A stretch of 6,770 nt of DNA from an uncultured Pseudomonadota bacterium (GTDB lineage Bacteria > Pseudomonadota > Gammaproteobacteria > Burkholderiales > SG8-39): assembly GCA_903864555.1 (NCBI GenBank), contig CAIPGJ010000331.1:1-6770 (forward strand), given 5' to 3'. Below are positions 412-6,770 of this stretch, one piece after another. The position numbers and the translations under genes are program-made. The first letter of the stretch is position 1; each line of letters begins with the position of its first letter. The notes beneath the pieces are model-generated. The model did not search any database. It saw only the letters and a program-made list of their open reading frames with translations, and was not told where the DNA came from.

Positions 412-588
412 ATGGCGAAGCCCAACTACGGATTTGCGAAGCACCAGCGCGAAATGGCGAAGAAAAAGAAGCTGGAAGAAAAGCGCCAGAAGAAGGAATC
501 TGCCAAGCAGCAGGACGAGAACAACGGGCAACCCGGCGCAGACACCACGCCTGGTGAAGGCACCCCACCGGGAACCTCCGGCTCCTGA
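412..588 (+). CDS. Small basic protein of the MAKPNYGF type (58 aa)
   Basis: This 58-residue protein starts MAKPNYGFAKHQREMAKKKK. Short proteins with a nearly identical MAKPNY-F-K-Q-E-AKK start are common conserved hypotheticals in beta- and gammaproteobacteria, as I recall; their function is unknown. Residues 9-34 form a highly charged Lys/Arg/Glu/Gln helix. Residues 35-58 form a flexible tail rich in Gly, Pro, Thr and Ser. No signal peptide or membrane segment is present, so a small cytoplasmic protein, possibly nucleic-acid associated, is plausible but is only inference from charge. A GAGG Shine-Dalgarno at 403-406 lies five bases before the ATG. The gene sits 59 bases after csp, on the far side of the csp terminator, so it needs read-through or a promoter of its own. 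Confidence 0.85.
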   Translation: MAKPNYGFAKHQREMAKKKKLEEKRQKKESAKQQDENNGQPGADTTPGEGTPPGTSGS

Positions 589-1100: not shown

Positions 1101-1931
1101 TCAGCGATTGAGCGGCCAGGCCGACGCATCGATGGTGTCGCAGTAGGCATGCCAGGTGGCATAACCCAGCAGCGGGATGATGATCGCCAGGCCCAACAGG
1201 GCCGTGGCAAAACCGATGGCCGTCAGCGCCACGATGAGCAAGGCCCATAAGGCCATCACCGCCTTGTTGCGCAGTACCGCATTGACACTGGTGACAATGG
1301 CCGTCACCGCGTCGCAGTCCCGGTCGCAGATCATCGGCAGCGAATAGGCGCTGAACAGGAAGGTGATGAAGGAGAACACCGAACCCACGGCGGTGCCGAT
1401 GGCCAGGAAGGTGGCCATCTGGGCAAGGTCTGGATGGGCGGTCGTCGGAAAGAACACGTGCACCATGGACGCGGAGCGCGCCCAGATGAGAAACAGCACC
1501 AGCAAGGCCAGCGCGAAGACCATGGCCGTGCCCAGCGAACGACGCATGGAATCCAGGCCCGCGGCCAGTGACGGCGTGGCCCCCAGCGCAATCTGACGGC
1601 TGATGGCGTACAGCCCCAGCGCCAGCAGGGGCGCGATGAAGACAAATCCCGAGAGCAGCACCAGCGCCGCCCAGTAGCTGCCGAACTTCAGGCCGATGCC
1701 CGTCACCAGCCAGGACAGCGCCACGATCACCGCGCCATAGGTGAGGCTCTGCCGCGGCGCCCGGCACAGGTCGGTCCAGCCGTGTTTCAACCAGCGCAGC
1801 GGTGCGCCGGGGTCAAGGTCACGCGCCGGCGCCATGAACGGCAGCAGGCTGCGATCGATACTGTCAGCCGCAACATCCTTGACAGCAGTTTCATGGATGG
1901 CCATCGGATCGACGGCACCTTGTTCTGTCAT
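1101..1931 (-). CDS. DUF2189 family integral membrane protein (276 aa)
   Basis: This predicted inner-membrane protein of the DUF2189 family has no known biochemical role. A soluble N-terminal part of about 60 residues contains the motif LRWLKHGWTDLCRAP (45-59), typical of the family start. Hydrophobic segments follow at about 64-80, 86-110, 133-151, 171-200 (long, possibly two passes) and 224-256 (two passes), giving roughly six helices. The polar loops are short, such as ISRQIALGATPSLAAGLDS and CDRDCDAVTAIVTSVNAVLRN. There is no signal peptide. The ATG at 1931 has a purine-rich GGAGG site about 10 bases upstream, with a second GGGAAGG nearer. An ATG at codon 10 is the alternative start. The gene is divergent from the solute-binding protein gene at 2117 and upstream of the DUF2970 gene, with which it may share a transcript. 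Codon use is high-GC like its neighbours. Confidence 0.88.
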   Translation of the reverse strand: MTEQGAVDPMAIHETAVKDVAADSIDRSLLPFMAPARDLDPGAPLRWLKHGWTDLCRAPRQSLTYGAVIVALSWLVTGIGLKFGSYWAALVLLSGFVFIAPLLALGLYAISRQIALGATPSLAAGLDSMRRSLGTAMVFALALLVLFLIWARSASMVHVFFPTTAHPDLAQMATFLAIGTAVGSVFSFITFLFSAYSLPMICDRDCDAVTAIVTSVNAVLRNKAVMALWALLIVALTAIGFATALLGLAIIIPLLGYATWHAYCDTIDASAWPLNR

Positions 1932-4384: not shown

Positions 4385-5425
4385 TCATATGCGCTCAGTG
4401 ATACTCAGCGTCTCGCCGCCAAAGCTGGGAATCACCATGGAGTGCAGGCCAGCCCCGCCAGCCACGGCAATGAGGATCTGCCGGGGATCATCGAAGTAGG
4501 ACACTTCGGTCACCTCCGGCCCCAAATTGAAAGCCGCGCGTCGCCCGCGATAGAAATTGTGCAGGCCTTTCCCCACCCGGCTTAGATCAAGGCGCAGGCG
4601 GCGATGCAGTTCCTCGCGGATGTCCTGCTTGCTCATGCCATCGCGCGCCAGGATCTGCGCATGCTCGGGCCCGAGCACGAGCATCATTTCGCCACACAGC
4701 CCCGCATTATTGTTACCGGTCACATTCATGGTGTCGGCAATGGTGAGCAGCAATTCTTTGGCCGTCCGGCTGCCATGATCCTGAATATTGTGGGGCGCTT
4801 CGCCCGCATGCACGGTCACGGCGCTCTCTTCGGCCGCCATGCCCTGATCCACGTGATAGGGCGCCCAGGGACTTTGTTCCTCGTTCTCGCCAGCACAGAA
4901 ACTGAACTTGCAGGGTGAGCCGAAGGTAGCCATGTCGGTCTTGCCAGGCAGCCCCTGGCCGACATTCATGAGCACCAGGCGCACGGCCCGGCCGATGGTG
5001 GCGTTGGCGCGGAATCCCTGGCCGAACACATTGCTGCCGCAATTCAATCCGATGCGCCCACGCACCGGCCCGTTGACCAGCAGAAACGGTGCTGCTGGAT
5101 GGGTGGTGCCCTGCACACTGGCCAGGTTGAACTCCGGGCGCGCCAGGGCGCGTAATGCCGCCAGCACCACCGGCATGTACTCCGGCCTGCAGCCGGCCAT
5201 CACCGCATTGATGGCAACCTTCTCCACCGTGGCCATGACCAGGCTGGGCGCCATGAGGGCCACGTCGGCCTCGGGCGGCAGGCCACTGCCCTCCACCATG
5301 GTCGTCACCAGTTCCGGTGTGGGCGGCACCACCGGCAGCCCGTCGGTCCAGCCCTGCGCTTCGAAGTAATTCTGCATGCCCGCCGGACTCGCATCCACGT
5401 GCAACACCTGCGCCTTCAGTCCCAT
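4385..5425 (-). CDS. Conserved protein of unknown function partnered with the UGSC selenoprotein (346 aa)
   Basis: I recognise this as a conserved soluble family often seen with UGSC-type proteins, but its reaction is not known to me. Conserved-looking blocks, in order, are GWTDGLPVVPPTPELV (25-40), ATVEKVAINAVMAGCRPEYM (65-84), the TTHPAAPFLLVNGP block (107-120), GLNCGSNVFGQGFRANATIG (126-145), TDMATFGSP (163-171) and CAGENEEQSPWAPYHVD (177-193). An Asn-rich TGNNNAGLCGE lies at 236-246. Cys residues are at 79, 129, 172, 177 and 244; the repeated Asn, Gly, His and Cys blocks suggest an active site or a metal or cofactor site. There is no signal peptide or membrane helix. The ATG at 5425 has a perfect AGGAGG five bases upstream and begins 14 bases after the selenoprotein stop, so the two are almost surely co-translated and functionally linked. 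Homologues I recall have Ala or Gly near the NCGSN position, so Cys129 may be a variant. Confidence 0.8.
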   Translation of the reverse strand: MGLKAQVLHVDASPAGMQNYFEAQGWTDGLPVVPPTPELVTTMVEGSGLPPEADVALMAPSLVMATVEKVAINAVMAGCRPEYMPVVLAALRALARPEFNLASVQGTTHPAAPFLLVNGPVRGRIGLNCGSNVFGQGFRANATIGRAVRLVLMNVGQGLPGKTDMATFGSPCKFSFCAGENEEQSPWAPYHVDQGMAAEESAVTVHAGEAPHNIQDHGSRTAKELLLTIADTMNVTGNNNAGLCGEMMLVLGPEHAQILARDGMSKQDIREELHRRLRLDLSRVGKGLHNFYRGRRAAFNLGPEVTEVSYFDDPRQILIAVAGGAGLHSMVIPSFGGETLSITERI

Positions 5426-5439
5426 TGCAGCCTCCTTTT

Positions 5440-6060
5440 CTATTCCTCGTCCGTGCCGCCGGGCACCGGTCCAACAAAGGTGCGGGCGACCGTCGCCACC
5501 ACATCATCCGCAATCGAGCCGATTTCCTCGGCGGTGCGGATCATCATGGGATGCGGCAGGTGGACCAGCGGCAAATCCGGAAGGCGCAACATTTCCCGGC
5601 GACGCGTGGCCAGCACGCTGAAGGGCGGGGTAATGAAGGTGACAGTCGGGATGCCCTGCGACTCTAGGCTGTAGGCGTCGTGGACACTCCACGACGTACA
5701 GGCGCCTCAGTCGCCCAGACCGGTCAGCACCAGATCGGGCTTCCAGTCGAGCAGTTCCTGGAAGAAGTGCTGGCCCGATTCGCCGGCGTTGGGCTTGCCC
5801 CAGGTCCGTGTTTCGGCGACACCAAATTGCGCTTCCAGTCGCTTGCCCACGGCCGTGAGAATTTCAAGGGCATTCACCTTGCCATTCTGGAACAGCGCCA
5901 GCCGCCGGCCCCGCAGCGACGACAGTCGCGGCGCAAGATTGCGCGGCGCAGGCCGGGGAGCGCCCGGCACGACCTTCTGAGAGCCCGTCTCCGCCATTTC
6001 CACACCGGGATGCAACACCGCCAGGGTGCCTGCTCCCGCAAGACCACTCGATTCCGTCAT
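5440..6060 (-). CDS. UGSC-family selenoprotein with in-frame TGA (Sec118, 206 aa)
   Basis: The gene reads 117 codons from the ATG at 6060 to a TGA at 5709-5707, then 88 more codons in the same frame to TAG at 5442-5440. Taken as selenocysteine, the TGA is Sec118 in the motif VLTGLGD-U-GACTSWSVHDAYSLE. This is the UGSC-family motif (usual form U-G-S-C-T-S-x-S-V-H-D-A), here with Ala for Ser, giving a U-x-x-C redox pair of Sec118 and Cys121. The N-terminal half has RRLALFQNGKVNALEIL (52-68), and the C-terminal half has GIPTVTFITPPFSVLA (136-151) and LPLVHLPHPM (163-172), which recall the end of glycine reductase GrdB. A SECIS-like hairpin follows the TGA. AGGAGG lies four bases before the ATG. 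No signal peptide or helix is evident, so it is probably cytoplasmic. A Cys-less truncated gene or a nonsense mutation is the alternative; motif position, intact downstream frame and hairpin argue against it. Selenocysteine needs selA, selB, selC and selD, not in this window. Confidence 0.88.
5669..5709 (-). promoter_or_regulatory. Bacterial SECIS element with its UGA codon
   Basis: On the minus strand the UGA (5709-5707) is followed by a two-part stem. CTGTA (5701-5697) pairs with TACAG (5673-5669). After a small internal loop, GTCGTGG (5695-5689) pairs perfectly with CCACGAC (5683-5677). The apical loop is AGTGT (5688-5684), with a G at the second position. It begins 18 bases after the UGA. 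These values fit the known bacterial SECIS rules (hairpin right after UGA, apical loop about 16-37 nt away, G among the first two loop bases). I see no bulged U in the upper stem as in E. coli fdhF. The hairpin encodes the conserved residues following Sec. Confidence 0.8.
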
Positions 6061-6506
6061 CCTTCCTCCTTTGCGAATTCATCAATACTCGCTTCGATAT
6101 GGCCGGCTGCTTGATGGCCAACTGCCTCACAGTCAGCGGCCACTCCATGACTGTTTCAGCAGATATTAGCAGCAGCTTCACAGGATGCTTTGAAGAACAT
6201 CGGCTCTTGGGGGATTTCATACGGGTGACGGGGATGTTTGCGAGTTCTTCAAGAGCTTGCCCAAGTTGGAGTATTCTTCCGGAAGGACTGAACCAGTGGG
6301 CGCATATTCGCAACTGCACCGCCTTGTAGATCCCCCACTTTAGAGGAAACCTTTGAACGACTATCCTCGATTCAAGACTTGATCAGTGTTTCCTTTAGAG
6401 ACAGCGACAGAAACTGCAGCCCTTCGGCCAATAAAGCCGGCCTGAAATCAACATACGGCTGCAGTGCTCTACCTCTCAGGCGGTGATGCTTCCAGGAGTG
6501 GAGAAC
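6061..6506. other. Divergent intergenic region between the selenoprotein and Bug genes
   Basis: These 446 bases hold the promoters of both divergent genes, though I see no convincing -35/-10 pair. The base composition is visibly less GC-rich than the flanking genes. Contents: AGGAGG for the selenoprotein at 6065-6070; an inverted repeat at 6129-6154; an AGGAAAC/GTTTCCT inverted pair at 6344-6350 and 6388-6394; a repeated CTTTAGAG near 6338 and 6393; and AGGAG at 6494-6498 for the Bug gene. On the minus strand, one frame encodes LTVRQLAIKQPAISKRV (about 6133-6083), which resembles a LysR helix-turn-helix. A second frame encodes a short acidic peptide that ends in TGA overlapping the selenoprotein ATG. 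I call neither a real gene. Confidence 0.55.
6129..6154. promoter_or_regulatory. 7-bp inverted repeat, candidate operator upstream of the selenoprotein gene
   Basis: ACAGTCA (6129-6135) and TGACTGT (6148-6154) are perfect reverse complements separated by 12 bases. The repeat lies 69 bases upstream of the selenoprotein ATG, a place where a dimeric repressor or activator would bind. A 7-bp repeat of this kind can arise by chance in 446 bases, so the call is tentative. Confidence 0.3.
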
Positions 6507-6770
6507 ATGAAACGGTTCAACGGATTGTTCGCGGGAATGGTTCTGGGGATTTGTGCCACAACGATTCAGGCCGCCGACATTTTTCCCACGCGCCCTGTTC
6601 GCATCATCGTTCCCACTGGAGCAGGCGGTATCACCGACATCCTGGCCCGGGTGATCGGGCATAAGCTTCGCGACAGCTTCGGCCAGCAGCCGGTGATCAT
6701 CGAAAACCGGGTGGGAGCGAGCGGCATCGTCGGCTCGCAGCTCGTGGCCAATTCCCCGCCCGACGGCTAC
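6507..6770 (+). CDS. Bug-family (TctC-like) periplasmic receptor, N-terminal part (88 aa seen)
   Basis: The gene begins at the ATG at 6507 and runs open through the window end (88 codons seen; family members are about 320 residues), so it is partial only because the window ends. Residues 1-22 form a signal peptide (basic MKR, hydrophobic core, cleavage likely after IQA, before ADIFPTRP). The mature start matches the Bug/TctC receptor pattern: FPTRPVRIIVPTGAGGITDI (25-44), then ARVIGHKLRDSFGQQPVIIE (47-66), NRVGASGIVGSQLVA (67-81) and SPPDGY at the edge. Such receptors bind small carboxylates or related molecules in the periplasm, usually for a tripartite tricarboxylate transporter; many work as orphan receptors. 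AGGAG lies eight bases before the ATG. The gene is divergent from the selenoprotein operon, suggesting a shared regulator and possibly a shared substrate. The ligand is unknown. Confidence 0.93.
   Translation, partial: MKRFNGLFAGMVLGICATTIQAADIFPTRPVRIIVPTGAGGITDILARVIGHKLRDSFGQQPVIIENRVGASGIVGSQLVANSPPDGY

Follow-up and report, generated by a model that had tools for sequence, protein, structure and literature searches.

The apparently truncated gene at positions 5440..6060 on the minus strand of the 6,770-nucleotide stretch of DNA analysed here (the window) most likely encodes a full-length selenocysteine (Sec) protein of the UGSC family. The best explanation as a whole, to which we give a probability of about 0.85, is that an in-frame TGA is read as Sec by means of a SECIS hairpin and that the UGSC gene lies upstream of a partner gene, whose product may form a single enzyme with it. 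The frame opens with ATG at 6060-6058 behind a ribosome-binding site AGGAGG (6065..6070, minus strand), runs for 117 codons to TGA at 5709-5707 and continues for 88 codons (GACTSWSVHDAYSLE...) to TAG at 5442-5440, giving 206 residues with Sec118. An earlier note on this DNA had proposed such a 206-residue frame with an in-frame TGA, and direct reading of 6060-5440 bears it out. Automatic annotation drops the catalytic half of this protein; with the corrected call, two ‘hypothetical’ genes become one testable selenoenzyme module.

The read-through protein matches the Pfam family UGSC (PF24696) with 139.5 bits over residues 39-195, spanning the TGA and covering nearly the whole domain length (gathering cut-off 25 bits), so that the family membership proposed in the earlier note stands. 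That the 88 codons are open says little in itself, since 238 of 2000 base shuffles leave them open too. The part after the TGA matches PF24696 by itself (70.2 bits, E 3.2e-19), which is decisive for the reality of the read-through frame. With the NCBIfam equivalog NF041046 (UGSC_fam) the window protein scores 121.6 bits, under the naming cut-off of 125, as do 3 of 10 relatives trimmed to the domain. The window protein is one more member of an already known, NCBI-named family, the ‘UGSC-containing protein’ of Zhang and Gladyshev (2007-2008). As in that family, the motif starts with Sec or Cys, the gene calls are cut short and a partner or fusion is present; the window protein differs in its NF041046 score and in its motif: Sec was expected at the first position and TGA is found there, but the TGA-GAC context gives UGACTSWSVHD, that is, U-G-A-C rather than U-G-S-C. 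In PMC2398784, 255 Sec and 21 Cys forms of UGSC are given for the GOS data set, and a 2026 review lists the family as NF041046, citing the 2007 Olavius paper (PMC13188914). The same review describes the functions of such families as largely uncharacterised, and we found no biochemical data on UGSC.

A structural model of the UGSC chain (pLDDT 89.2) consists of alternating strands and helices (E53-58, H64-79, E83-88, H97-106, E110-116, H119-134, E139-143, H145-157, E165-167); Sec118 falls between the strand at 110-116 and the helix at 119-134. The protein may accordingly be pictured as a beta/alpha Rossmann-type domain that would carry Sec at the start of a helix. This picture competes with the 2008 proposal that UGSC is a thiol-disulfide oxidoreductase of thioredoxin fold, serving redox defence and not catabolism. 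The UxxC motif speaks for a thioredoxin-like protein, and such a fold is called ‘likely’ in the relevant passage of PMC2398784. The beta-alpha repeats of the model speak against it, and the best structural matches are generic Rossmann or flavodoxin-like proteins, although the lack of a thioredoxin row among them excludes nothing. A general redox protein would also be ill-suited to the usual presence of a partner and to 58 family matches in one genome (both described below), and we consider this proposal unlikely.

The identity of the codon at the Sec site could be followed in many relatives. We read 158 stretches around the listed PF24696 matches as DNA; profile searches gave 189 hits, of which 3 below 25 bits were dropped. 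The 186 kept, which represent 181 distinct copies when the window is counted, all contain the motif (Sec or Cys)-G-x-(C or S); it reads UGSC in 153 of them and UGAC in 11. Among the distinct copies, the codon at the site is TGA in 173 of 181 and TGC or TGT (Cys) in the other 8; every one of the 169 distinct copies from the order of genome G250 carries TGA. The reading of the TGA at 5707..5709 (minus strand) as Sec at residue 118 rests on this conservation. The nearest relative of the window gene in the DNA set (locus L193) is 45% identical, and with 172 further distinct copies having TGA at the same codon, a sequencing error at 5707-5709 is very unlikely.

Downstream of the TGA lies a SECIS-type stem-loop of the bacterial kind (5666..5707, minus strand), with a core stem of 5695-5688 paired with 5684-5677 and a GUG loop at 5687-5685; its assignment draws on the predicted fold, on protein-preserving shuffles and on compensatory changes. 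The bSECISearch rule calls for a stem-loop downstream of the UGA with an apical loop 16-37 nt away and a G at the start of the loop; in the window, the GUG loop lies 19 nt from the UGA, in agreement with this rule. Four cuts of the post-TGA stretch gave fold z values of -2.64 to -3.65 against dinucleotide shuffles. The window hairpin alone is modest, as 51 of 1000 synonymous shuffles fold equally well. Across the family, a hairpin obeying the rule occurs in 163 of 170 de-duplicated TGA copies, where redrawing the codons while keeping the protein would lead one to expect 54.6, and in 1 of the 8 Cys copies, where 2.3 would be expected. The mean fold z is -1.51 after the TGA, compared with -0.36 to -0.57 at five control offsets. 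The pair +18/+24 beside the loop shows the strongest covariation of all column pairs (GC 99, CG 70, one mismatch). Of the 208 cells that 26 chosen sequences provide for the eight-pair stem, 95.7% are paired, and doubly changed, compensatory stem cells number 10 against 1.7 in shuffles, a level reached in 0 of 500. The hairpin, which had been predicted from the window sequence, is conserved beyond the constraint imposed by the protein.

These data bear on the reading of the TGA as a true stop, by which the locus would hold two genes or a decayed gene and the product would be the N-terminal 117 residues. Gene callers do end 30 of 34 database homologues in ‘...GD’ precisely at the TGA site, a truncation that the earlier note had foreseen. 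These endings are gene calls, however. Three of the remaining homologues (P0029, P0034 and P0035) run on with DCG(S/A)CTSW, having Cys at the TGA codon, and P0033 has Ser in place of Sec or Cys (HSGSCTSW); a further protein, P0104 (424 aa), appears by eye to start downstream of the TGA site and to extend into the partner. The independent match of the downstream half to PF24696, the restriction of the site to TGA or Cys codons among the 181 copies, the retention of the hairpin and the in-frame fusions to the partner described below together make a true stop very improbable.

The genes for Sec synthesis and insertion were sought in the genomes of relatives. A selA gene was found in 35 of 37 genomes with UGSC (it was not above the cut-off in G829 and G868), against 6 of 40 genomes of the same order that had no UGSC match and were chosen by handle number. 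Among eight UGSC genomes checked, selA, selB and tRNA-Sec were all above the cut-off in G143 and G315, which have TGA copies, and in G003, which has a Cys copy, with tRNA-Sec scores of 71-79 bits. UGSC, partner, tRNA-Sec, selB and selA lie on one stretch in G315; selA and tRNA-Sec are near UGSC in G931, and the distance between UGSC and selA is below 5 kb in G931, G788, G958 and G897. On plasmid pFER4 of Paracoccus ferrooxidans (L213, 1-24381), trxB, selA, a UGSC gene with TGA, the partner and selB fall within one 24-kb region, in which tRNA-Sec was not found; trxB and selA are about 8 kb from UGSC, whose annotation breaks it at the TGA into two hypothetical proteins. Plasmid pTAV4 of P. versutus (L214) has the same TGA gene with tRNA-Sec nearby and selA about 8 kb away. 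Genes resembling DsrE/TusA and methionine synthase lie between in the selenium region of the Paracoccus plasmids. Such named strains (P. versutus UW1 and the P. ferrooxidans plasmids) make the function of UGSC directly testable. Decoding of the UGA as another amino acid without selenium, whether as Trp under a variant code or through leaky suppression, is the least probable reading of all. A frame that is open whatever the code does not by itself speak for Sec, but TGA serves as stop codon in four other genes of the window, what replaces it at the site is Cys (8 of 181 copies) or Ser (the single database protein P0033) and not Trp, and selA and tRNA-Sec co-occur in relatives.

The partner gene of the window encodes 346 aa (4385..5425, minus strand). 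Its ribosome-binding site AGGAGG (5431..5436, minus strand) lies after the UGSC stop and before the partner's ATG (5425), which begins 14 nt after the TAG; a site just past the TAG had been noticed before and is confirmed here. A partner gene on the same strand within 400 bp accompanies 179 of the 186 UGSC copies, downstream in 117 and upstream in 62 (some loci overlap). UGSC and partner make up one read-through frame in 43 of the 173 TGA copies, among them the nearest relative L193, with the partner C-terminal and no other TGA between. A fusion of UGSC to a protein named Unknown_1, which may be the present partner, was already reported in 2008 (PMC2398784). Profile scans placed the partner in no Pfam or NCBIfam family and revealed no convincing NCBIfam similarity, and structural comparison of its model (pLDDT 90.1) gave no clear fold. 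It has at least 7999 homologues, all 7999 scored candidates having E <= 0.001.

PF24696 was above the cut-off in 37 of 349 genomes of G250's order; one phylum draw of 398 genomes gave 5, another draw of 394 gave none, and neither did a further one of 48, where the controls gave no match either. The order of G250 is probably Burkholderiales, because a copy of UGSC with TGA, accompanied by partner-like DNA, is present on a named Acidovorax plasmid and one close homologue of the partner is labelled Ramlibacter. The 37 genomes hold 310 PF24696 matches, summed per genome, with 58 in G1008, 26 in G785 and 24 in G864; among the matches listed for them, each has one in-frame TGA. In G1008, 24 of the 58 matches were read and all have TGA; the nearest paralogues are 39-70% identical and therefore unlike strain duplicates. 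Large expansions also occur in G785, G864, G980 and G746, with loci including L055, L068, L108 and L137. In the figures given by PMC13188914, the number of selenoprotein genes in a bacterium rises to 57 and 63 at most, and the selenoproteome of G1008 is possibly among the largest. For UGSC, the table of a 2016 survey covering more than 5200 organisms gives the row ‘26, 33’, which we take as organisms and genes (PMC5029168). Judging from the relatives of the window, a single uncharacterised selenoprotein family may attain 58 matches in one genome.

Profile matches in the Sec region, weak but recurring across members, link UGSC to selenoprotein B of glycine/sarcosine/betaine reductase (GrdB/GrdF/GrdH) and to D-proline reductase PrdB. 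When 70 UGSC members were scanned against NCBIfam at E <= 1, gly_red_sel_B was matched by 36 (best E 6.6e-6), TIGR01918 by 15, GrdF by 14, GrdH by 7 and PrdB by 6, while the most frequent unrelated family was matched by 7. No GrdB model was present among the 24 Pfam families matching the same 70 members at E <= 1. Scores with TIGR01917 are low, 12.4 bits for the window and at most 20.9 among ten relatives, against a cut-off of 602.2 (65.45 for TIGR01918). UxxC is common to both groups, and the longer UxxCxxC, given as the GrdB/F/H motif in PMC6778437, occurs in 49 of 181 distinct UGSC copies; 106 of 181 have UxxCxxW, and the window is among these and is without UxxCxxC. Thioredoxin reductase is sometimes near UGSC, a further likeness to GrdB/GrdF/GrdH. 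On the other side, the window protein has 206 residues whereas the profiles have 431-435 (GrdB/F/H) and 238 (PrdB), the UGSC partner resembles no reductase subunit, and no grd gene appears among the 25 of 52 UGSC neighbour families listed. The sequence comparisons thus suggest a distant relationship of UGSC to the Sec region of GrdB/PrdB, and remote kinship only. The portions of the literature on UGSC and glycine reductase that we consulted state no kinship with GrdB. Parts of the present picture may already be contained in the work of Haft and Tolstoy on selenoprotein neighbourhoods (mSystems, 2025) and in Haft and Gwadz 2023.

PMC10838667 describes the Sec of component B as the residue that probably attacks the substrate in glycine reductase, and gives the proposal that the C-F bond of fluoroacetate is cleaved by a GrdB-like pair. 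The distant similarity to GrdB/PrdB would suggest a two-part, thioredoxin-fed selenoenzyme of carboxylic-acid catabolism. Comparison supports the insertion of Sec by means of the hairpin immediately 3' of the TGA, yielding the 206-residue selenoprotein. In the mechanism that we propose, UGSC and the 346-residue partner would form one enzyme; Sec could attack or reduce a small carboxylic-acid substrate bound together with the partner, and would be re-reduced by the thioredoxin system. Such an enzyme could serve peripheral catabolic gene clusters. That UGSC and its partner form a substrate-specific two-part selenoenzyme is a tentative proposition to which we give slightly less than an even chance, and any exact reaction would have to be put lower still. 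More speculative than the two-part enzyme as such is a wider scenario, in which UGSC and partner would make up a two-part selenoenzyme system that has gone unrecognised and that has a common ancestor with the Sec domain of GrdB/PrdB. It would have radiated in a proteobacterial order into many substrate-specific paralogues (58 matches in one genome), would carry out reductive or nucleophilic steps in the catabolism of carboxylic acids and possibly of pollutants, and would also reside, with the Sec machinery, on Paracoccus megaplasmids.

The neighbours of UGSC genes appear to fit a catabolic enzyme fed by thioredoxin. A Cys-form UGSC of Roseovarius has trxB, a TRAP transporter and a CoA-transferase as neighbours, and that of Natrinema an amidohydrolase, a Rieske protein, a CoA-transferase, HMG-CoA lyase and TctC; upstream of UGSC in L014 lies an ORF that by eye resembles thioredoxin reductase. 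The nearness of TctC genes to UGSC says little, because TctC is so abundant in genomes with UGSC: each of 10 genomes, including G1008, G856 and G980, has at least 105 TctC/Bug receptor genes, and first-look candidates number up to 995 in G1008. In the window, a TctC receptor gene (6507-6770, plus strand) is divergent from the UGSC gene and runs off the window end. The window also carries a gene for a DUF2189 membrane protein (1101-1931, minus strand); a similar-looking one, judged by eye, accompanies UGSC in L052 (8293-9090, plus strand), which may be due to chance. A lysine-rich ORF of 58 residues (MAKPNYGFAKHQREMAKKKK...; 412-588, plus strand) directly follows a cold-shock gene and a terminator-like hairpin. 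Finally, two similar stretches around ‘CAGA(C/T)TGTGATCA’, at about 660-680 and at 1064-1085 of the window, look by eye like possible operator copies.
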